DNA of 64,000 nucleotides from Fasciola hepatica (Eukaryota; Platyhelminthes; Trematoda; Plagiorchiida; Fasciolidae): assembly GCA_948099385.1 (NCBI GenBank), contig CANUEZ040000167.1, positions 1,384,001 to 1,448,000 on the forward strand, in the 5' to 3' direction. Shown piece by piece: positions 6,019 through 56,689 of this stretch; positions within the stretch are counted from its first letter, which is position 1; each line of letters begins with the position of its first letter. A program made the translations under genes and the position numbers. The notes under the pieces were generated by a model. It was not told the DNA's origin. It did no database searches and worked only from the letters and a program-made list of their open reading frames with translations.

Positions 6019-8136
6019 TTAATATTGGGCCAAAAAAATGGCAGAAATGAGTTTGCGAGATGCACGGATACCAGGATGGGAACGAGAATGAAAATGATCG
6101 AAAACGATCTTCCTGTAGCAAGTTGGAACGATAGGACGAGGGTTACCTGTAGACCAGTCACATAGGACTGTGCCATCGGCTGAAGGTAGGGGAGAATCCT
6201 TGAGCTGGAGTGTGGAGGATGTGCGCAGTTCGAGCAAAGATGGATCATCACGCTGGAGGTTTGCCAGTTCCGTAAGATCGAATTTAGTCTGCACCGTGTT
6301 GATGTCAGGTCTGGATAAAGCATCAGCCACAACATTATCAACTCCACGCACGTAGCGGATGTCTGTTGTGAACTGAGAAATATAATCCAAATAGCGGATA
6401 TCTCTGGGTGAATGTCGGTCAGGCTTGGCATGAAGTGCGTGTGTCAGGGGTTTGTGGTCAGTGTGCACACGAAATTGCCGTCCTTCCAAAAGATGACGGA
6501 AATGACGGATGGACAAGTTAATAGCCAGGAGTTCACGAGAAAACGTGCTGTATCTTGTATGTGCCGCCTGGAGTTTTTGCGAGAAGAACGCCAAGGGCTG
6601 TAATTGGTTGTCCACTATTTGGTGAAGCACTGCACCGACCGCAGTATTTGATGCATCAGTCGTTAGGATTAACTCAGTATTTGGATCCGAATGAGGGTGG
6701 TGCAGCATGGTGGCATCTGCGAGAGCTTTTTTGGCTTCTGTGAAAGCTGTCTCAGCCTCGGGAGTGAAATCGATCGTCTTGACGTCGGACTTGAGAAGAT
6801 CGGTCAAAGGTGAAACGATGGTCGCACAATGGGGAATGAAGCGACGGTAGTAGTTCAAAATTCCCAAGAAACGTCGTAACTGTGTGATCGTTTGAGGTGC
6901 AAGAAATGAGGGGATGCTGCGCACCTTATCTGGTAGGGGTGTCAAACCGTTTTGATCGATATGGTGCCCGAGAAAGTCGAGGAATGGAACGCCGAACACG
7001 CATTTACTAGGGTTCAGCTGAAGGCCGTATTGTTGGAAACGTTGGAAGAGTTGACGCAGGTGGCTGGCATGCTCCGATGGAGAGGCCCTGGCAATTAAGA
7101 TGTCGTCGATGTAGCCAAACGCGAAGGGTAGACCTCGAAGCACTTCATCGACGAATTGTTGGAACGTCTGAGCAGCGTTTCTCAATCCAAATGGCACGCG
7201 AATGAACTCGAACAGGCCAAAAGGCGTTGTGATAGCTGTCTTGGGAATGTCTTCTTCAGCCACGGGGATTTGGTGATATGCCTTTACGAGGTCAACCTTG
7301 GAAAAGATTGTCTTTCCAGAGAGATTCTGTGCAAAATCGTGAATGTGTGGGATCGGATACCTGTAGGGGACCTTGACGTTGTTGAAAGCACGGTAGTCTC
7401 CACAGGGTCTCCAATCACCAGATGATTTTGGAACCATGTGCAAAGGCGAGGCCCACGGGCTTGAAGACGGTCGAATGATGCCAAGATTCATCATATGTTC
7501 GAATTCAAGTCGTGCGATACGGAGTTTGTCGGCGTTGAGTCGTCGTGGTTGAAAGTGAACAGGTTGGTCTTTTGTAGCGATGTGGTGCTGCACAGCATGA
7601 GAGACTGGGTCGGTGAACTGACAAGGTTTAGTGAGGGATGGAAACTCCTTCAAAATGTCAGCGAACGGCGATTGCGGGATCGCCAGCCGAATACCCAGGG
7701 AGTTGGTGCATTTACCAATGCCGACTGCACGGAGCTTGGTTGTGGTGTCTACCAGCTTGCGATTTTTGAGGTCCGCTGTTAGGCCAAAGTGTGAGAGGAA
7801 ATCCGCGCCAATAATGGGAGTCTGAACATCCGCCTGGATGAAAACCCGTTGAAAAGAGCCTCTGAGGCCTAAATCAAGAGTGATGGACCGTTGGCCGAAT
7901 GTCGCAATAGTTGTTGTGTTTGCTGCTTGCAGTGTAAAGTGATATGGTTTGAGGCTGTGATGTTTGGGTGGGGGGATTACACTGATCTCGGCGCCGGTAT
8001 CAATGAGGAATCGAAGACCACTGGATCGGTCAACGATATAAAATGGGCGACTTTCATGTGGAGGGCCAGCCGTAGTCGTCGCCGTTACTGGCTGGCCTGG
8101 TCGTCTGACTGTGGGGTGGAAGTGCGGAATGAACAT
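6019..8136 (-). CDS. pol: pol, unit 2: protease, RT, RNase H
   Basis: A 705-residue frame with the same translation as unit 1, all catalytic residues present and the same terminal stop. No unit-specific amino-acid change is visible. Confidence 0.93.
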
Positions 8137-42743: not shown

Positions 42744-43193
42744 TCACAGTGAGGAATGTTCGAGTGGTTGCACACTTGTTCGGGAACAAGAAGTGGGCCA
42801 TGGAAGTTTGAGCGCTTGAGAAAATTGTTTCTGAGCACACAGGGGAGGATTGTAGAGTCGAATGCTCACGGCTTCGGCTGTGACTAAGATGCGACACTTG
42901 ACACTTGATTGCTTGCCCCGGACCCTATAAATGGTGAGAAAAGCGTTTATCACCTCTAAGGAATGGTTTGACTGAGCAAGGTGTGAACACACAGCACTCG
43001 TAATTGTCCTAATCGCTCCAGTGTTCAACCAAGCCGGGCGGTGTTCACGAACACTTTCGGATAGGCGCTTGGTCGTGCGGCCAACGTATCTGGTTCCACA
43101 GGAACAGGTGAATGAATACACACAAAAAGATGCTGCAGAATCTGGCACTTTATCCTTCAGTCGAAAACACACGATCGGTTTAGACTCGAACAT
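42744..43193 (-). pseudogene. GIY-YIG endonuclease domain of Penelope-like element
   Basis: A 149-residue frame with CVYSFTCSCGTRYVGRT (residues 24-40: the GIY-YIG equivalent is VY and YVG), then an Arg at 43 and REH at 49-51, as in the RT-linked endonuclease of Penelope-like elements. The domain would nick target DNA. After NPPLCAQKQF (about residue 115) the frame runs into the inverted RT fragment, so the C-terminal 30 or so residues are antisense read-through rather than protein. The open frame suggests younger decay than the RT part. Confidence 0.75.
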
Positions 43194-43399
43194 AATTTGT
43201 AATTGTGCAGCGTAGAATGTTCTACTGACTGCTCCTGTTAGTCATCGTTGAATAACTTCAGTTTCCGTATCTCCTCTGAATGGTAAACGGACAAATACGG
43301 GCTTCTTTTCGACTACTGTCTCTCTTGGCCTATCTTCATGTCTTTGCAGCGTCTTGTCGATGAGCCGTTCAGGATTGCCGTTTTCTAGGAAAACACTCC

Positions 43400-44010
43400 T
43401 CAGAAAACGAAGTTCATTTTCTATTGTCTTCCGTGCAGATTTTCCTTGATCTACTAACCAGGCAAGACACTAGATTTCTCTTCACTTTGAGTGGTACGAA
43501 ACTGTGAAAATGAATGTATTGCTCGTTCCAAGTTGCTTTCCTGTGCACTGACAACTGAACGGAAACATCACTTCGACGGCTTACGCAAACATCTAAGTAA
43601 GGTAGACTGTTTTCCTTTTGAAAAACACAAGTTGGCGAACAAGCTCGTTTTCAGTGATTCTTAATCATGACAATACAACACAATATATAGGACCAGATGC
43701 ATAAGGGATACAGTCAACAAAAATCGTGTCAGGGATCGTCGTTCACACCTAGTGTGGTACAGGATTATCCGGAAACCAGGTGTGAATGGACTAACACGTT
43801 CTCCTTTTCTTGTTCCAAAGTGAATTGAACATTTGGATGGGCTGTGTTAAATCTGTTAAGTAGTACATTTGGATCAACTTGGGTACTACTACGTATACGA
43901 TATCGTCCACGTACCGTTTGTATATGGTGCACCACTTCTTGTTCCCGAACACGTGTGCAACCACTCGAACTGTGATCAATTTCAAAGGCACACACACACG
44001 TGCACAGACA
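43400..44010 (-). pseudogene. Penelope-like reverse transcriptase fragment
   Basis: KKWCTIYKRYVDDIVYVV carries the RT catalytic YVDD. In another frame RFNTAHPNVQFTLEQE follows, which corresponds to the N-(A/S)-HP-NI-(K/Q)-FT block of Penelope-like RTs. The LPYLDV block comes next. At least two frame changes are needed between these motifs and the N-terminal RT half is absent, so the gene is dead. Confidence 0.75.
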
Positions 44011-44012
44011 GA

Positions 44013-44181
44013 GGAATCATTATCTGCAAAAAAACTCAAGGGGTGAGGAACAAAAAACGAAAATGAGTGCATGAGTGATCGTCCTAAGCTGCTCGGCGTG
44101 CACACAAATCTAAAAAGAACCTGTAAAACGGTTGTTTCTTTGTTTTTAGAAGAAAAATACGATGATAACAATAAAACCTTA
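44013..44181. other. Junction between Penelope-like and Gypsy relics
   Basis: It lies directly after the integrase stop of the Gypsy relic. It could hold the polypurine tract and start of a truncated 3' LTR, but no second LTR is present to confirm this. Confidence 0.35.
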
Positions 44182-45108
44182 CTAACAATCAGGTATAACG
44201 AAAACAGTGTCCACGACACGTTCGGATCTTCGCACGACCCGACCACGACGGTCGCGCTGAACCGGCGTTTCGTGGTTTGTGGTATCCGAGCTTGCTGTTG
44301 ATGTGGACTCAGATGAGGGTTTTGCGACAGGTCCTGGACATTTTTGGGCTGCATCCAATGGGGTCTCTGCTTCCATGAAAGCCAGTTGGAAACCGTTTCC
44401 TGTTTGCCCCTAAGTTCGATGATGTAATACTTTTCTTTCCGCTCTAAAACTCGGTGTGAGCCTGAAGCGAGTGCCGTGTACTGTCCGTACGCAAGAAGAC
44501 GTGTGTGCACGTGGACTGCTCCTTAGGCATGTACACTGGTACGCTCTGCTCCCTTGTCGATGCTGCGTGCAGGTCATGCATATGCTGAGTTAGGCGTTGG
44601 GTGTAGTCGGAATAGTTAAAAGGATGCGGAGGCTGTAGTGCAATCGGTTCCTCCCGGCAATCTAAGCGGACACTCAAATAATAACTCGTTCGGCGTTGAA
44701 TGCAGGTCGGCTTCCACTCAACGGCGAATGCCTAACAAGACAAAAGGAACAGTCTCATGCCATACCGGGTTCGCATGAGCTCTTAAAGTTCCTTTGAGTT
44801 GTCCACGAAAACGTTCAATCAAACCGTTAGCAGATTGACGGTACGCCGTAGTTCTCACTTGTTTACATCCTAACGAACCTTGGAAATCGGTTCCCCGATC
44901 GGCGGTTATTATGGCGGTGCATCCGAACGGGGTTACCCATCACTCCAAGAAAGCAAGTGCGATTTTTTCGGATGAGCAGCCGCTTATGGGTATCGCCTCA
45001 GCCCACCTCGAAAAACGGTCGATGCATGTCAACAAGTAGGTGAATACCCTAGATGGAGGCAGAGGACCTACTAGATCCACGTGCACATGGTGAAACAGTG
45101 TATCGGAT
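44182..45108 (-). pseudogene. Integrase of third Gypsy relic, core shortened
   Basis: Blocks in order are CQRSKVHRHT (zinc domain end), HVDLVGPLPPS, DRFSRW (first Asp), ITADRGTDFQ (second Asp), ANGLIERF (Glu), then a GPY/F-type region (VLERKEKYYIIELRG) and a basic C-terminus ending at 44182. Between the second Asp and the Glu there are only 27 residues instead of the 35 in the array element, an eight-codon in-frame loss just after FQGSLGC. Stops and frame changes occur downstream. Confidence 0.75.
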
Positions 45109-48015: not shown

Positions 48016-49591
48016 TTCCTACCTAGAAAGCGTGGAAGGTTTTCAAAAAATGGTAGGGAGGTGAATGCATGAAAACGATATTCGTGCGCGTGAATACGTG
48101 CAAGATACACGAATGCAGCTGGGCAGTAGAATGCAGTAACCGCAGAATGATGGCCGATGTAACGCATTGGCATACACCGCCATTCCTATTCTCTCTAATG
48201 TAATTGTTGGCACCTGCTTATACACTTACTGGGCTTCGGCTCATTGGATTTTCATTCTTTCTTTGCCTTTGCAGATCGTGCATGTATAACCCCACGGAAG
48301 AGTGCTGCATCCAGCACACCCGGCGGCCCTGCTTGCCTGGGTCCGTGTCGAACCGCCATCTTTGTCGTGTTCTGACGTGAGCGCGTTCGTCGCCATGTTA
48401 CAGTCGTTACCAATGACATCGGTGGCGTGTGCCGTCATCTAGGTATGTCACACCAATCACGTCCAGCCCCGGGTAACCGGTAACCAATATGATATTCGGA
48501 AGCGAAATCGGTAGGTTCGTCAGTGACAAGAAACAACAAGGATAGGGCCCAACCATAATGCGAACGTTCGTGCCAAAATTCTCCGCATTTCATGAGACCA
48601 GCCAAGTGTACTATACGGTGACGTTCCATGAAACGAAAATGGATGAAAAACTGGTGTAGCAACCACAATGGATGGGATTAGTATATAATAATAAGGAATG
48701 ATGTATGTTAAATCGTGTCGAAACGATAAACACGAAAGTTAAAACCGCGAAGTGCAATGATTATGATCGTGTTTGACCTAGTCGCGAAAACGTGCTGGGA
48801 AAACGATTTTCCGATGGGAACGTGAACGGAAGCTTCATTCGACGACGTAGCACAGCCAATGGGCTGCTGATTTCGATGTTAGATGATAATGTCATGCCGT
48901 AGCAGAACCAACTGGGTCATGTTTTCACTTGTCGTCTCGGAGAATGACAACGAACATGTCTGTCACAAGCCGATCATGGCCTTCGTGTAGCCAAAAGTTG
49001 GCTATGATTACCAGTGTGACCGGCAAATGGTTCCATCGTACGGTTCAAGCACACCAAAAGCCCAATGAGAACGCCACAATTGTGTCCTCCAGTTAGGGTT
49101 TTGTGTCACACCTGTAACTTAATGATACAATGATAATGAATGGTCTTCAGTGCATTTCTGACACATTTGGGAAATCCAAAGAAGAGAACTGGATAACTAG
49201 TTACTGTCCAGTAACGGGACAGTGCAATGGGATTGCTGAAGCGAAAATCCGAAGACTCCATTGAACTGTTATACATAAGTTTCAGTAAACTGCCAGCCAC
49301 TTGGACATCCTCCGACGAGGAAAATAACTAAGCTACGGTTGTTCAACAGCCAAGGAGTAAAATTAGGTTTCATTAATAATTTCTCAAGGTTCTACGGTAC
49401 TTATTAGTAAACTACCACACAGCTTACTGGTCCAATAGGCTACATGCAAGGTAAATTGTCATTATCGATATCAGTTTCATATTCAAAGTGAATCCACCTG
49501 AGGCAACACCACTAAAGTTGATCCAGTTTCTCCAAAGACCATCGATTTAGTTACTGCATACGAATGAGCACTTCACTACTTCAGCTTCCGC
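48016..49591. other. No gene recognised; left flank of the palindrome
   Basis: Noncoding by inspection. It has no counterpart on the right side of the palindrome. Confidence 0.45.
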
Positions 49592-49716
49592 CCATGTAGC
49601 ACGTTGCCCACCGCAACATTCCGGTAACATGCCGGTAACAAGTGGGCAGAGAAATAGTGGACAATTTATACAAGTAGTCACATAATTATTCTTCAAATGG
49701 CCTTGTGAGTAATAAT

Positions 49717-49890
49717 ATGCAATTTTTACTCGTATTTATGTCCGTGAATTGCGGTGCAATCGTGGGTCTTTGTTTTAGTCAAGTGAAGGCCGAATTCAAA
49801 TCTCGAAGCGGTTCTGCCTTGTCACAAGCGTCACGAGGTTCTGTCCGTGATTGTGAACCGTTTGGGTACATTTTGGAAACTGCTTTATAA
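49717..49890 (+). CDS. Small ORF with signal-peptide-like N-terminus, left arm
   Basis: A 57-residue frame from the ATG at 49717. The first 22 residues are hydrophobic (MQFLLVFMSVNCGAIVGLCFSQ), like a secretion signal, and the remainder is Ser/Arg-rich. It could be a short secreted peptide, a first exon, or chance. The mirrored copy is at 53583-53756 on the minus strand. Confidence 0.2.
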   Translation: MQFLLVFMSVNCGAIVGLCFSQVKAEFKSRSGSALSQASRGSVRDCEPFGYILETAL

Positions 49891-49902
49891 TATTCAGTTG
49901 CA

Positions 49903-50085
49903 ATGGCTGAAATAAATAAGTGGAATAGATATCGTATGAAGAAGAAAGAACTCGGCTCCGTTAAGTGTGCTGTTTGTGGAGAAGCCACACTGTGGGAGCA
50001 CCGCGTGCGTTGCCCAAATTTGGATTTGCCAGGTGAGAGTATTCGCTGTCTTGTTACGACATATGTGAGGCATCGGTTAGTGTGA
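49903..50085 (+). CDS. Small Cys-rich ORF or first exon, left arm
   Basis: The frame starts at ATG 49903 and encodes a basic N-terminus (KWNRYRMKKKE) followed by CAVCGEATLWEHRVRC, a C-x2-C...H...C pattern suggestive of a small zinc-binding site. A GT donor at 50033 and an AG acceptor ending at 50116 would join it to downstream sequence with a stop about 22 codons later. In that arrangement it does not continue in frame into the DUF4806-like gene, so it is either separate or wrongly phased by me. Confidence 0.3.
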   Translation: MAEINKWNRYRMKKKELGSVKCAVCGEATLWEHRVRCPNLDLPGESIRCLVTTYVRHRLV

Positions 50086-50358
50086 GGTATTTTAAAAACC
50101 CGTGTCAATTTTTCAGCAAACCCATGCGGTCTAACCGCCTGTACATTTATTCCGTTGACGGTTTGCACGATGATGTCGTAAAACTTCCGGTTAGTAGCAT
50201 TGTGTGTAAGTGCTTTCCCATTACCGTTGGCATTCTTCGTGTAATCGTACCCATATTACACACTTTTAACTATTGATATTTCACTTTTTGATATGTCTGG
50301 TACTTGAAATTTATAATGAATAATAACTCCGCGTATTGCCAACTGCTAACTTTTTTAG

Positions 50359-51039
50359 ATGTACTTAGTAGTTGTTTTCGTATGTGATAAATCTGTGGCC
50401 ATCGTCCACAGTAACTGGCTGGTTGATGACAAAAGAGTACGTTGGCCCAAGTCGTCAACCTTCCAGGTATATCAGAGATTGCTGTTGGAAGGTTCGAAAT
50501 TGGAGGATAGTGTTCCAAATTACGAATTCCATGAGGGATATCACTCAGGTAAGTTCAGAGTATACTCTTATGCTGTCAGATAACCTGAAGGATGCAATGG
50601 ATTTCGAAAGGAAGTTTATCGGTGAAACCGGCTCAACTGAATAAGTTGGAAAGTGACCTGGAAATCAACAGAAATTTTAACTGCACAGTGAGTTTCATAT
50701 TCCGTTAGGCTTACAAATTAAGGTGAACGCCCTGCAGCGCCACGTTGGCACCGATCTGGGATCAACTGTGCGTAGAATGTTGTCTTCGTTAGTTGGAGAA
50801 GATCTGGCGCTCCGGTGTAATTGGACCGGAACGCCCGGAAATATTCCAATCAGAAATTATCGATTTCCCTACGCTGTGATAGGTAAAGCTGTTTCATCAA
50901 TACCACATTTAATTTCACAGAAGCCGTCAAAACAACTACTCGGTTCCAAGAGGTACCACCTTTGGATGTCGAGCGCATCATGAAAAGGTGGTTTACTGAT
51001 GCCCGGGATCGGGGTTTCGGTCGTCGGATTGCCAGGTGA
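50359..51039 (+). CDS. DUF4806-like protein, left-arm copy, four exons
   Basis: Exons 50359-50548, 50580-50621, 50709-50882 and 50921-51035/51039 all have GT-AG borders. All three joins fall after the first base of a codon, giving one open frame of about 175 residues. Introns are 31, 87 and 38 bp. The N-terminal part (YLVVVFVCDKSVAIVHSNWL...VRWP) resembles the small N-terminal module common in these proteins. The C-terminal part (HVGTDLGSTVRRMLSSLVG, NWTG, FPYAVI, EAVKTT, IMKRWFTDARDRGFGRR) fits the DUF4806 domain, whose function is unknown. The last exon can end at a TGA at 51037-51039 or be spliced onward at the GT there. An additional 5' coding exon at 50124-50189 is possible. It faces its twin. 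Confidence 0.6.
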
Positions 51040-51136
51040 GCTCAAATTCCCCTGTGAAATACACCTGAAAAAGTTATACTTCGTTTGTGTAGCACGATTC
51101 AATAATGTCACGTTTTTCGTTTACGTTGCAAGGTAT

Positions 51137-51334
51137 GTGTTTTCAGTTTTCATCTGGTCCATGGCCTGTGGACGGAGAGTCAGGGAACCATAAGGGCACA
51201 TACAAATTGTTTTTGAACCTTCACAACCCCCCTCTATGTGCTCAAAAACAATTTGTATGTGTCCTTAAGCTTCCTGGCCCTCCGTCCACCCTACAACAGG
51301 CCATAGACCAGATGAAAACTGAAAACACGAGAAA
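51137..51334. repeat. Nested hairpin inside the left palindrome arm
   Basis: 51137-51219 and 51239-51334 are inverted repeats of each other (TTTTCAGTTTTCATCTGGTC against its complement, then the GGCCTG, TGGACGGAG and CACATACAAATTG blocks), with roughly 85-90 percent pairing. A C-rich loop (51220-51238) separates them. The loop and second half translate as NPPLCAQKQF...LKLPGPP, close to the end of the Penelope-like endonuclease at 42.8 kb. The counterpart in the right arm is 52139-52336. Confidence 0.8.
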
Positions 51335-51554
51335 AACAAATACACATCCGGTTTTGATTTATGCCCGGATTAGAATTGTTTTCTTTCCCTCCCACACCCC
51401 TTCCATCATTAATTCTATCACTTCCCATTTATCTAATTAGTTCAAACCTTTGAATTACCGTAATTTATTGTTATGTAATGGCATGATTTGGAATCACTGA
51501 GAACGAGCTTGTTCCCCAAACTGTGTTCTCTAAATATGTTCACTGTGAATATTC

Positions 51555-51556
<2 letters not shown>

Positions 51557-51631
<75 letters not shown>
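51557..51631. repeat. TA microsatellite, left arm (75 bp)
   Basis: An uninterrupted AT/TA dinucleotide run. The mirror run in the other arm is 20 bp shorter. It could itself extrude as a hairpin. Confidence 0.95.
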
Positions 51632-51635
<4 letters not shown>

Positions 51636-51857
51636 TACCATTGTTCACATCGCCAAACCATTGTTTCATTTGCATTTTCCCTTCCAGATCTCGCCGGCAC
51701 ACAACATGACGTTGCGAGAATATGTCCAACCTTCTCTTGTACAGTGATTTTTATAAAAGAAGGTTGGACATATTCTCGCAACGTCATGTTGTGTGCCGGC
51801 GAGATCTGGAAGGGAAAATGCAAATGAAACAATGGTTTGGCGATGTGAACAATGGTA

Positions 51858-51861
<4 letters not shown>

Positions 51862-51916
<55 letters not shown>
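51862..51916. repeat. TA microsatellite, right arm (55 bp)
   Basis: The mirror of the left-arm run, 20 bp shorter. It accounts for the entire length difference between the arms. Confidence 0.95.
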
Positions 51917-51918
<2 letters not shown>

Positions 51919-52138
51919 GAATATTCACAGTGAACATATTTAGAGAACACAGTTTGGGGAACAAGCTCGTTCTCAGTGATTCCAAATCATGCCATTACAT
52001 AACAATAAATTACGGTAATTCAAAGGTTTGAACTAATTAGATAAATGGGAAGTGATAGAATTAATGATGGAAGGGGTGTGGGAGGGGAAGAAAACAATTT
52101 TAATCCGGGCATAAATCAAAACCGGATGTGTATTTGTT

Positions 52139-52336
52139 TTTCTCGTGTTTTCAGTTTTCATCTGGTCTATGGCCTGTTGTAGGGTGGACGGAGGGCCAGG
52201 AAGCTTAAGGACACATACAAATTGTTTTTGAGCACATAGAGGGGGGTTGTGAAGGTTCAAAAACAATTTGTATGTGCCCTTATGGTTCCCTGGCTCTCCG
52301 TCCACAGGCCATGGACCAGATGAAAACTGAAAACAC
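52139..52336. repeat. Nested hairpin inside the right palindrome arm
   Basis: Mirror of 51137-51334. It contains one of the few arm differences (Pro instead of Ser in the reading frame across 51181 and its mirror). Confidence 0.8.
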
Positions 52337-52433
52337 ATACCTTGCAACGTAAACGAAAAACGTGACATTATTGAATCGTGCTACACAAACGAAGTATAAC
52401 TTTTTCAGGTGTATTTCACAGGGGAATTTGAGC

Positions 52434-53114
52434 TCACCTGGCAATCCGACGACCGAAACCCCGATCCCGGGCATCAGTAAACCACCTTTTCATGATGCGC
52501 TCGACATCCAAAGGTGGTACCTCTTGGAACCGAGTAGTTGTTTTGACGGCTTCTGTGAAATTAAATGTGGTATTGATGAAACAGCTTTACCTATCACAGC
52601 GTAGGGAAATCGATAATTTCTGATTGGAATATTTCCGGGCGTTCCGGTCCAATTACACCGGAGCGCCAGATCTTCTCCAACTAACGAAGACAACATTCTA
52701 CGCACAGTTGATCCCAGATCGGTGCCAACGTGGCGCTGCAGGGCGTTCACCTTAATTTGTAAGCCTAACGGAATATGAAACTCACTGTGCAGTTAAAATT
52801 TCTGTTGATTTCCAGGTCACTTTCCAACTTATTCAGTTGAGCCGGTTTCACCGATAAACTTCCTTTCGAAATCCATTGCATCCTTCAGGTTATCTGACAG
52901 CATAAGAGTATACTCTGAACTTACCTGAGTGATATCCCTCATGGAATTCGTAATTTGGAACACTATCCTCCAATTTCGAACCTTCCAACAGCAATCTCTG
53001 ATATACCTGGAAGGTTGACGACTTGGGCCAACGTACTCTTTTGTCATCAACCAGCCAGTTACTGTGGACGATGGCCACAGATTTATCACATACGAAAACA
53101 ACTACTAAGTACAT
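52434..53114 (-). CDS. DUF4806-like protein, right-arm copy, four exons
   Basis: The mirror image of the left-arm gene: exons 52925-53114, 52852-52893, 52591-52764 and 52438-52552 on the minus strand. The coding sequence appears identical to the left copy, so no stop or splice-site loss separates the two. The genes converge, with about 1.4 kb between their ends, so transcripts that read through would be complementary. Identity this complete means either a very recent duplication, ongoing arm-to-arm gene conversion, or an assembly artefact. Confidence 0.6.
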
Positions 53115-53387
53115 CTAAAAAAGTTAGCAGTTGGCAATACGCGGAGTTATTATTCATTATAAATTTCAAGTACCAGACATATCAAAAAGTGAAATATCAA
53201 TAGTTAAAAGTGTGTAATATGGGTACGATTACACGAAGAATGCCAACGGTAATGGGAAAGCACTTACACACAATGCTACTAACCGGAAGTTTTACGACAT
53301 CATCGTGCAAACCGTCAACGGAATAAATGTACAGGCGGTTAGACCGCATGGGTTTGCTGAAAAATTGACACGGGTTTTTAAAATACC

Positions 53388-53570
53388 TCACACTAACCGA
53401 TGCCTCACATATGTCGTAACAAGACAGCGAATACTCTCACCTGGCAAATCCAAATTTGGGCAACGCACGCGGTGCTCCCACAGTGTGGCTTCTCCACAAA
53501 CAGCACACTTAACGGAGCCGAGTTCTTTCTTCTTCATACGATATCTATTCCACTTATTTATTTCAGCCAT
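53388..53570 (-). CDS. Small Cys-rich ORF, right-arm copy
   Basis: Mirror of 49903-50085, with the same CAVCGEATLWEHRVRC stretch and the same possible donor (53440-53441). The translation is identical to the left copy. Confidence 0.3.
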   Translation of the reverse strand: MAEINKWNRYRMKKKELGSVKCAVCGEATLWEHRVRCPNLDLPGESIRCLVTTYVRHRLV

Positions 53571-53881
53571 TGCAACTGAATATTATAAAGCAGTTTCCAA
53601 AATGTACCCAAACGGTTCACAATCACGGACAGAACCTCGTGACGCTTGTGACAAGGCAGAACCGCTTCGAGATTTGAATTCGGCCTTCACTTGACTAAAA
53701 CAAAGACCCACGATTGCACCGCAATTCACGGACATAAATACGAGTAAAAATTGCATATTATTACTCACAAGGCCATTTGAAGAATAATTATGTGACTACT
53801 TGTATAAATTGTCCACTATTTCTCTGCCCACTTGTTACCGGCATGTTACCGGAATGTTGCGGTGGGCAGCGTGCTACATGG

Positions 53882-55985
53882 TTCGTCTACTCTATGGAAA
53901 GTTGTGTCGTCATATCTCTGTCTGACATTCCGAAAACTGAGCGACCAGCATCAGATGAACGAAAAAGTGAGTCATGTAATAATGCATTATTCACAAAAGG
54001 AAAACATACCTTATGTGTCATAACTGTTTTATCCAGAGTGACTTATCGAGTTTCACTTGGGATTGTCCCGCGTGATCACATATGGCGGCATTGATCTCCC
54101 TTCCTGAGTAACCGTCGTTTCAAACAATTAACCGTTGTTGAAGTTTCGTGTCCTTCATTTGTGATCAGGGGTTCCAGAAACTCTGCCACATCCTGCGGTT
54201 ATTTGTCACCGGAATATACACTAATGAGAAATGGGGTTCAGATAAAAAGTGTAACCAATTTCCCCAAAATTGTCCATATCCTCCGTGTTGAAGTGTTCAA
54301 CAGATGCATCGCGTTGTCGTGCAGCTGAATCGACAACGTTCTTTGGTTCACATCTACTGTAGGCGTGTGTATTTAAGGATTGCCCTCTGTAGACCAGCGT
54401 GAATCTACTGTTCGGGTTCGACCCTAAGGAGTTCCGTTATTCGCGGAGTACCCATTAATGTTCGCGTGTCCCTCGGAAGAGTTGGATGAAAAGGTCTGAG
54501 ACTATTCAGTAAATCGTTCATCTTTGCTTCTTCTATACGATTACGGACATACCATCGTCCCAGTGTTTACTCGATTGTTATGAAATTCGTGAAGTATTAC
54601 CGAAAACAAGGGCTCATGTGTTCTGTTCAGACAGATCTCCGGCAAATGGCTGTCAATCGATGGTGCCAATCAATCTGCATCACCAACATTTGACCATTGG
54701 TGATGTCTTGTTCCCGGTCCTCTGTCCCTACTAGGCACCACTGGGAAAGCCGTAAGCAACGTCTAAATTCGCTGCCGCTGACCCCAACATCTTTGATAAG
54801 CAGCACTTATTGTGGGTACATTTCTCGGAAATCGCAATACCTTCTTTGCAACATGACCACAACACGCACTATGAACCACAGGTAAATGTCAAATAAAGCG
54901 GCTTGTTTCTATAGTCTTTTTTCTAGGTTCATTGTCCAATCGTCCCCGTTCTAAGTATACCAGCCAGACGTACGTACATATATCAACCAACCGCTTCGCA
55001 GTTAGTTGGAAATGGTCACATGTAACCTTGACGTAAATTGATTGCGCTTTGCATCACGTATGTGACTCGCGAAAGGACACCACTAGCAGGCTGTAGACAG
55101 GTCAGATTGCTCACACGACTACGTGTTCAACTACAATCGGTATTGACATTCACCTGAGTTACAAATGTGCACTTTGTCCACGGGCCAGATAGGCCTCTAT
55201 GGGGAGTTGATTGAGTGAGTGCACAAACTAGAAACAACAGCGAAATTCCGTGTGGCTGATTATCGACCGTCATCAGGTTGCAGACATTTGTGTGGGGTAA
55301 GATTAAGCAATTCCCAATCGCAGTTGGTTTGTCTCTGCCCATGACAAGAACAATGCGGAAGAAATTCCAAAGATTTACGGTAGCTATGTCCGAAGAAAAG
55401 ATGAGATTTAGTCGACCACGGTTTCATGGTGAGACAAGGCTGGACGGAGGAGTGTCAGATGTTTGACATACGTTATTGAAATTTATTGAAATAGGTAGAA
55501 TTACATGTTGTATGGCTAAGAACGAAATGCCGTATGTACTTTAAGACACAAGCCTTCCGTGGATCATTTCCGGCACAAAGGGCCAACTGAATGAGTAATC
55601 ATGAAAGTGACGGGAAATGGACATGCCGAACGCGGCTCACACGATGTTCTTCATATGAGTAATAGTATAAGACTTATTCCTACTACATTTCGTTACCTGG
55701 GCTAACATAAAACGAGACATAGTGATGTGTTTCTAAGCATCACAGAAGGAAATGGAAGCACGTGTCCGGTATGCAGTCGCTGGAGAGTTTCATGCAATAA
55801 GGGGTTTCTTTCGAAATTAACCCTATTTTGTTAAGACAGATTGTGAAGTGACAAAACTGTTTTATTCATCTGGAATAACTTCCAGTGTGAAGAAATGAAT
55901 GATTTGGAATTGACTCCGGGCATTCATACAATGCCCATTCATTTTTATCCTAATTATCAGACAGAAAAGTTTCTGAACCAGTGCA
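53882..55985. other. Right flank of the palindrome, no gene recognised
   Basis: A 105-residue frame (53777-54094) begins inside the palindrome arm and runs into the flank, so it is not a conserved gene. Other frames are short and featureless. Confidence 0.45.
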
Positions 55986-55988
55986 GTT

Positions 55989-56275
55989 GTGTCCCTCGTT
56001 CTCCACCAATTTCACGGTTCTAAGTATTTCTCTAAAATTGATCTAAAAGATGCATTTTCACAAATTCCACTTGGCAAGCAATCCCGTGAGTTAACTACCA
56101 CTATTGTATATGCACCCACCAAAGAAATGCTTGATGAACATTTGCGTTCTTTGCTGGAAACGTTTCTGAATCATAAAGAAGCCATCAACCCTGATAAGTG
56201 CTTTTTTCTCTCCACTTCTGAGTCTAATTGCTTGGGTTATTCGGCTGTCCAATGCGCCCTCTCTCTCTCGAATCA
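55989..56275 (+). pseudogene. Gypsy-type RT fragment with the catalytic box deleted
   Basis: The frame reads QFHGSKYFSKIDLKDAFSQIPL (first RT Asp) to ELTTT and then passes straight to VYAPTKEMLDEHLRSLLE and NPDKCFF, which normally follow the YxDD box. The intervening TPFG...YxDD segment, roughly 45 codons in relatives, is gone without breaking the frame. Downstream similarity fades after NCLGYS. No flanking protease, RNase H or LTR was found, and the source family is not identifiable. Confidence 0.7.
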
Positions 56276-56689
56276 TTTGTTGAATTACGTTCTTTACTGG
56301 GTTGTCTTCAGTATTAATCTAGACTTATTCCAAATTTTGGCACTAAAACTTCTCTTCTATTCGATTTGTCCCAAGAGACGTGCGGTGGTCTTCCGTACGT
56401 GTACAATGCTTGCGTGGTTCAATAACATTTTTCGTCAACTAATGCTGTACGTCGTACTTTTTCCCATCATACAACTTCGACTGTTATTTCTTTGGTAAAC
56501 CGTGTCTCATTCTTATCAGTAAAATATGTGCATTCACTGAACAGCATAAATAAGTTACACTTCATCCATCGTTAGGCTGCATCTGCCACGGTGGCGTCTC
56601 TTGACTCTGGTCTTCTGGTCACTAGTGTAGAAACAATCAAATTATGCTTGTAGTGACTGCGGCTAGTCCTGTGAACACAATAAGCTAGT

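Follow-up and report, generated by a model that had tools for sequence, protein, structure and literature searches.

Galileo belongs to the foldback class of transposons. It has long, variable terminal inverted repeats; D. willistoni is reported to carry 191 copies, whose target duplications measure 7 or 8 bp (PMC4168063). Among animal DNA transposons, the TRC/CACTA (CMC-EnSpm) elements include SmTRC1 of Schistosoma mansoni, and the terminal inverted repeat of a Tribolium element starts CCCTAGTAGCACC (PMC1636069); transcription of CMC-EnSpm elements has been reported in Fasciola hepatica (PMC11270206). Through alternative or abortive transposition, Ac/Ds elements give rise to deletions and inversions in which a breakpoint coincides with a transposon end, and target duplications are recorded in the 11 inversions sequenced at both breakpoints (PMC3470690). 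Inverted duplications at short interrupted inverted repeats are the subject of the ODIRA model (PMC10766183).

Here we describe a palindrome in F. hepatica, contained in a window of 64,000 nt (the whole stretch of DNA analysed, from contig CANUEZ040000167.1 of assembly GCA_948099385.1), and compare it with these systems. Like Galileo, the palindrome has long inverted arms with transposon tips as bounds, but it was found once and without a target duplication. It shares with Ac/Ds rearrangements a breakpoint at a transposon end; unlike the Ac/Ds inversions, it shows no target duplication, and the 3′ ends of the transposon, named E here, are missing. The junction is inverted and its centre short, as in ODIRA products, and it may lie at a short inverted repeat, albeit an imperfect one; the palindrome differs in lying inside a transposon, in measuring only 4.3 kb, and in having one limit at a transposon terminus. 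E itself resembles the TRC/CACTA elements in the terminal CCC core, a TAGCAC motif at both ends, and 2-bp target duplications (ends compared, CCCATGTAGCACG and CCCTAATAGCACA); it differs in that no transposase was recognised in E, which carries a hypothetical DUF4806-like gene.

The first-pass annotation of this DNA had described a near-perfect 4.3-kb palindrome with a 22-nt spacer, and both features are confirmed, with arms at 49592–51735 and 51758–53881 and the spacer counted from the first mismatch. Two mismatches lie beside the loop (51736/51757 and 51739/51754); when both are taken as stem, the spacer is 10 nt (51742–51751). An inverted-repeat search returned arms at 49592–51617 and 51856–53881 together with an inner 165-nt pair (51577–51741 and 51752–51916), and BLASTN of the window against itself aligned 49592–53881 with its own reverse complement at 98.6% over 4,310 columns with 2 gaps. 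The arms diverge at 4 of 2,124 aligned positions (0.19%), all four being transitions (49604/53869, 51180/52293, 51373/52100, and 51386/52087), and they also differ by 20 nt in the length of an (AT)n run. The tips are as originally claimed, except that TGTAGCACG is not confined to them: both arms contain it internally as well, the left one at 51088 and the right one, in reverse, at 52377.

Table 1. Features of the palindrome and its surroundings (window coordinates)
Feature	Position	Strand	Remarks
Dispersed repeat Y	48404..48917	.	Adjoins inverted R fragment at junction 48917/48918; separate sets of matching places
R fragment	48918..49591	-	Inverted relative to the right-flank R piece
Left arm	49591..51758	+	E 1-2744, numbered as in L014; complete 5′ end CCCATGTAGCACG, no 3′ part
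Candidate exon with Cys motif	49903..50032	+	Pfam matches below cut-off
DUF4806-like gene, candidate exons	50359..51039	+	50359-50548, 50580-50621, 50709-50882, 50921-51039
Site of 629-bp internal deletion	50630..50632	+	In both arms; mirror site near 52841; GC microhomology
Internal hairpin-forming stretch	51137..51328	+	
(AT)n run	51557..51631	+	75 nt in left arm; 55 nt in right arm (51862-51916)
Spacer	51736..51757	+	Forward E sequence of left arm runs to 51758 (TATAAAA), then reversed copy
Right arm	51759..53881	-	Same E part inverted; 5′ end without first base (CATGG for CATGGG)
Right flank, R resumed	53882..56432	+	About 1.67 kb from left junction in R coordinates

Both arms represent the 5′ portion of the same copy of E, a dispersed DNA transposon; they are this single 3′-truncated copy set tail to tail with E 5′ ends outermost. 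The E 3′ end is absent from the palindrome and has no match elsewhere in the window at an E-value of 0.01. Intact E is 3.1 to 3.6 kb long with termini CCCATGTAGCACG and GTGCTATTAGGG, and its inverted terminal repeats have the CCC core by which TRC/CACTA elements are recognised. Judged by sequence, the ends of E match those of animal CACTA-related (TRC) elements (PMC1636069), and E is presumably a non-autonomous CACTA/TRC-type DNA transposon. Target duplications were scored at 17 of 20 loci (L010, L016, and L027 left out): with the outermost 3′ tip, 16 of the 17 copies have 2-bp duplications and the remaining copy has 3 bp, and with the innermost 3′ tip the count is 13 of 17. The assembly holds 113 E 5′ tips and one match to Transposase_21 (C108:9335896-9336252; 29.2 bits versus a cut-off of 28.6). 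No description of the locus was found among the titles and abstract openings listed in the literature searches.

The two arms are each other's closest relatives, at 99.8% versus at most 96.6% (5′ 1,040 positions) to any of 20 other aligned loci, and they pair with a support of 1.000 in FastTree (the only tree method; L016 left out). Among the 40 scored of 881 candidates, matches after the two arms reach at most 97%. Both arms have an expanded (AT)n run and the 629-bp internal deletion; the latter is private to them and removed sequence present in most other aligned E copies. The centre junction occurs a single time in the assembly with up to 3 mismatches allowed, and no other facing 5′-5′ pair of E within 10 kb was found among the 100 listed of 113 tips. 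In the left arm the sequence agrees with the E consensus, in forward orientation, as far as 51758; the right arm starts again 23 to 24 nt before that point, so that the two breakpoints nearly coincide.

The flanks had at first been taken as unrelated, which does not hold for their origin: both come from one old repeat family, R, of which they are oppositely oriented and non-overlapping pieces. The left fragment matches L038 (reverse complement, 2554–1890), L039 (4470–3812), and L040 (in two pieces) at 74 to 81%, and its junction with repeat Y is marked by query positions 13–526 matching one set of places and 527–1200 another, that of R. Elsewhere the R pieces stand in R order at five places (C168, C27 twice, C20, and C182), with gaps of 910 to 1,038 bp. 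A right-flank match lies near only 4 of 11 left-flank R places, among the matches listed (40 scored candidates at most for either flank), and three of seven right-flank relatives (L031, L033, and L037) have no left-flank match within 1.5 kb. A search for the exact empty-site pattern (left flank end, 0 to 6 bases, right flank start) gave zero matches because the flanks are not contiguous in R, and the palindrome has no target duplication (CG on the left, TT on the right). For an open reading frame of R, no Pfam match over the cut-off and no homologue were found.

Since the R flanks are inverted here, the same pieces lie in R order elsewhere, and the centre is unique, an origin in place is most likely. 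Among the three options first put forward (a fold-back-type mobile unit, a recent inverted duplication seeded by Penelope-derived hairpins, or an artefact), the recent inverted duplication fits best, without its proposed seed: the internal hairpin-forming stretch lies about 420 nt from the centre (near 51747) and is kept in 18 of the 20 other loci compared. That stretch is partly similar to another repeat end within the window, which we take to be a Penelope-like 3′ end. On balance, we consider it probable that the palindrome is an inverted duplication of E in place, probably by fold-back priming, combined with a flank deletion; we infer the priming, the sequence in which the steps occurred, the cut by transposase, and an initial duplication of the R flank. 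E would have inserted into the older repeat R and then undergone its internal deletion. A later DNA break or stalled fork inside E, at about element position 2744, would have produced a free 3′ end. Folding back on E within about 24 nt, this end would have primed a copy of E that ran on into the R flank, giving an inverted duplication of E plus flank. The left outer limit would reflect a further junction, at which R stops at 48918 and is joined to another repeat, and the right outer limit a deletion that starts at the E 5′ terminus, costs it one base, and removes about 1.67 kb of R; such a loss would be expected after a transposase cut at the E 5′ end and repair of the chromosome by end joining. 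No stretch of R is retained on both sides of the palindrome, and the flank duplication is therefore not seen.

The supposed 7-nt priming pairing is imperfect (one wobble and one mismatch), the pairing in L014's own sequence is only 4 of 7, and 51725–51758 folded as DNA gives a weak priming stem (−0.1 kcal/mol, z 0.8). Random pairs with at least 5 of 7 positions paired and a terminal match, at offsets of 17 to 60, numbered 1,097 of 105,600, which counts in favour of such priming, but some such template would lie within 60 nt at 847 of 2,400 positions, which counts against it. That the right limit coincides with the E 5′ end needs a separate step in the fold-back account.

Two separate insertions of E into R, one of them inverted, could have lost the 3′ parts that faced each other and then become nearly identical by gene conversion. 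Such a history would also leave E 5′ ends at both outer limits, and the palindrome would end sharply because conversion halts where homology halts. We nonetheless find this history rather unlikely, as it requires two insertions, an inversion, and truncation of both copies at points no more than 24 nt apart, besides full-length conversion that took in the (AT)n expansion as well as the 629-bp deletion; moreover, the right end lacks E's first C, kept by 96 of the 100 listed 5′ tips (113 in total). A fusion of sister chromatids or homologues, both broken in E and one already carrying the flank deletion from the E 5′ end, accounts for the different, non-overlapping parts of R on the two sides and, if the arm differences are allelic, for these as well. 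Breakpoints just 23 to 24 nt apart better fit self-priming, however, no allele is visible in this sequence, and such a fusion appears distinctly unlikely.

All of the evidence comes from assembled sequence, which keeps an assembly or fold-back read artefact under consideration, and amplification reportedly may give chimaeric palindromes in long reads (PMC6218980). A fold-back read would mirror the flank, whereas the right flank is not a mirror of the left; in addition, 4 transitions and a 20-nt difference in microsatellite length separate the arms, the palindrome stops on the right at a transposon terminus, and no separate near-identical half copy appears among the 40 scored of 881 candidates. 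The simple fold-back read artefact was rejected on the arm differences and non-mirror flanks, and we judge an artefact very unlikely overall. A palindromic fold-back transposon moving as a unit with two 5′ ends, close to one of the options that the first-pass annotation had left open, is extremely improbable: a transposase might in principle recognise two identical 5′ ends, but the tips are 5′ ends belonging to a conventional transposon whose two ends differ, the 2-bp target duplication and the right terminal base are missing, and the flanks do not make one target site. The palindromic form was seen once in the centre search, and the search for further copies with the same tips, proposed at the outset, found no other facing 5′-5′ pair within 10 kb among the 100 listed of 113 tips.

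Returning to the inverted duplication in place, the palindrome looks like a transposon in decay after rearrangement and damage, not like a novel type of mobile unit, and a striking gene palindrome can be read as the scar that an insertion, a deletion, an inverted duplication, and the loss of flank left in one transposon copy. It is doubtful, and in our estimate improbable, that the transposon has been caught becoming a long-inverted-repeat (foldback or MITE-like) element, still mobilisable as a unit with two 5′ ends; a transposase cut at the 5′ end plus fold-back repair would then convert an ordinary two-ended CACTA-type element. If confirmed in reads, the 2.1-kb arms and 10- to 22-nt centre would provide a natural setting in which to test how such unstable structures survive in the germ line of an animal, and whether abortive transposition can set ordinary transposons on the way to becoming long-inverted-repeat ones.

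Each arm had been credited with an intact-looking multi-exon gene, but the gene is not intact, the 629-bp deletion having removed sequence that most other copies have. The DUF4806-like gene is a hypothetical model that lacks an internal segment found in full-length copies. No Rfam family matched at gathering scores, and a bacterial-type promoter scan, without meaning for this DNA, was set aside. Relatives of the DUF4806-like gene are P0001 and P0002 of Fasciola gigantica (62 to 65% over 45% of the query), and the signal of selection on the gene is mixed, since across 21 sequences the pN/pS values for the five candidate exons are 0.69, 0.50, 1.03, 0.16, and 1.2.

Self-comparison of the window sequence recovered the palindrome as the first-pass annotation had described it. 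The arms differ by 4 transitions over 2,124 aligned positions, by 20 nt in the length of an (AT)n tract, and at 2 further positions beside the loop. The 22-nt spacer was likewise confirmed, and it shortens to 10 nt when two inner-stem mismatches are allowed.

Used as a query against the assembly (1.5 Gb, 656 contigs; the window is G000:C167:1384001-1448000), an arm gave at least 75 matches (best 40 of 881 candidates scored); among the matches listed, many are split in two pieces with about 0.6 kb between them. From 20 fetched loci of 10 kb each we defined E, the dispersed DNA transposon that supplies both arms, with 5′ end CCCATGTAGCACGTTG and 3′ end GTGCTATTAGGG; its 5′ tip occurs 113 times in the assembly at up to 3 mismatches. 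Scored at the outermost 3′ tip, with loci L010, L016, and L027 left out, the target duplication is 2 bp in 16 of 17 copies and 3 bp in the 17th; at the innermost tip it is found in 13 of 17, because the 3′ end is repeated in four copies. Copies L011, L012, L013, and L019 carry a second 3′ tip, and the duplication sits at the outer one. Locus L027 holds two same-orientation copies 4.9 kb apart; their 5′ flanks agree throughout the 25 nt shown, and a tandem segmental duplication is the probable origin. E is like animal CACTA-related TRC elements in its CCC core and 2-bp duplication, and its ends resemble such TRC ends as that of Tribolium, where the TIR starts CCCTAGTAGCACC (PMC1636069). The genome has a single Transposase_21 match, barely above the cut-off (29.2 versus 28.6 bits), with an open frame of 171 aa. 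E is apparently a non-autonomous CACTA/TRC-like transposon.

Each arm covers E from its 5′ end as far as position 2744, in the numbering of the 3,164-nt reference copy L014, and both arms carry an internal deletion of 629 bp whose breakpoints are unlike those of L009 and L010. Both outer ends of the palindrome are E 5′ ends, and the E 3′ end is gone on either side. The intact-looking gene proposed for each arm was not borne out; the arm gene is internally deleted. A protein search with this candidate gene returned two hypothetical Fasciola gigantica proteins (62 to 65% identity over 45% of the query), which points to a fasciolid-like flatworm as the probable host. The name DUF4806-like is tentative, since Pfam gave 12.3 bits for one exon (cut-off, 25) and no DUF4806-type match for the spliced model. 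Elsewhere in the window are fragments that we take to be Penelope-like, and E itself contains a stretch similar to them.

In the FastTree tree the arms group as sisters with support 1.000 on a private branch of 0.016, and over the 5′ 1,040 positions they share at most 96.6% identity with any of the 20 other loci. At 49604 the right arm is unlike all 19 other copies having a base there, and at 51386 the left arm is unlike all 18 copies compared, 17 of which match the right arm; the comparison is less clear at 51180 and 51373. Together these relationships imply that this copy had separated from the others long before its arms were duplicated or last fully converted.

Coordinates of features in the window and elsewhere in the assembly
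Feature	Sequence	Coordinates	Strand
Palindrome	window	49592-53881	
Left arm	window	49592-51735	
Right arm	window	51758-53881	
Internal deletion in arms	window	50630-50632	
Left flank matching R	window	48918/48920-49591	
Penelope-like fragments	window	42744-44522	minus
Head-to-tail units	window	1-23912	
Transposase_21 match	G000:C108	9335896-9336252	
R in the same order	C27	7755179/7756872	
R in the same order	C20	3257515/3259090	
R-related tandem array	G000:C124	778812-818858	
Open frame within R	L038	3863-4639	

Pieces of an older repeat, R, flank the palindrome on both sides. The right flank matches many old R copies at 68 to 79%, and the left flank matches R copies L038, L039, and L040 too, in the opposite orientation to the right flank. 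In these three the left-flank match runs up to the edge of the palindrome, and some 1.0 kb separates it from where the right-flank match begins; the left piece of L040 is further interrupted by about 1.1 kb. Coordinates of listed matches give the same order on C27 and C20, and it is seen at no fewer than 5 places in all, with gaps of 910 to 1,038 bp. The left piece is absent within 1.5 kb in 3 of 7 right-flank relatives (L031, L033, and L037; L031, L033, and L032 are one tandem set on C168), and 4 of 11 left-flank R places have a right-flank match nearby, among the matches listed and with the C124 array counted as one. That array is a repeat fragment turned tandem, with an R-related stretch at least 14 times (among matches listed) at a spacing of 3,029 bp. 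Left of 48918 lies a different repeat. In L038 coordinates the left arm joins R at ∼1890 and the right arm at ∼3564, and the 1.67 kb of R between the joins (1.69 kb in L039) is absent on the right side. Insertion of the whole palindrome at a single R target site was rejected, the left R piece being inverted relative to the right. R in L038 also contains a 259-aa open frame that may be akin to animal CACTA transposases, with no Pfam match above the cut-off and no homologue found; the reverse complement of L038 also has a tip-like GTGCTAGTGGG, at position 6125.

At the centre, the left arm keeps the forward E consensus up to 51758, and the reversed copy begins 23 to 24 nt earlier in E. The final 7 bases pair with the presumed copy-resumption site at 5 of 7 positions plus one wobble. 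Pairing of at least 5/7 with a terminal match arises in 1,097 of 105,600 random pairs (offsets 17 to 60), 847 of 2,400 positions have one or more such partners, and L014's own sequence reaches 4/7. The centre stem was not stable in DNA folding. Self-priming is argued better by the near-coincident breakpoints than by base pairing.

An inverted duplication, a right deletion, and a left limit explain the junctions. E would have resided within R, its 5′ end meeting the repeat at R 1890 to form the left junction, where CCC is intact; the inverted duplication would have run through E into R; and a right-side deletion, perhaps later, would have removed the sequence between the E 5′ end, which lost one base, and R 3564, with the left limit set at R 2554. 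A deletion beginning at a transposon end suggests that a transposase cut may have occurred there, for which Ac/Ds rearrangements (PMC3470690) offer an analogy. A closely related alternative is fusion between sister chromatids or between homologues.

A read artefact could also yield a palindrome, but several features speak against one: the arms differ from each other, the flanks are not mirrored, the boundary falls at a transposon end, and the matches listed (best 40 of 881 candidates) include no half copy elsewhere with comparable identity. The search for further copies that had been proposed found the centre once in the assembly (up to 3 mismatches). Among 100 tips listed of the 113, read by eye, only this palindrome pairs a plus tip with a following minus tip no more than 10 kb away; the next such pairs span 22 kb (C103) and 37 kb (C22). 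The palindrome is truly present in the assembly and is best interpreted as having arisen in place, by fold-back, from a CACTA/TRC-like transposon; it represents a neat case of a mechanism already known in kind rather than a new system.

The window also begins with five head-to-tail units of 4,766 bp (99.9% identity) whose open frames we take to be Ty3/gypsy-like; they may be retroelements arrayed in tandem or may result from assembly.
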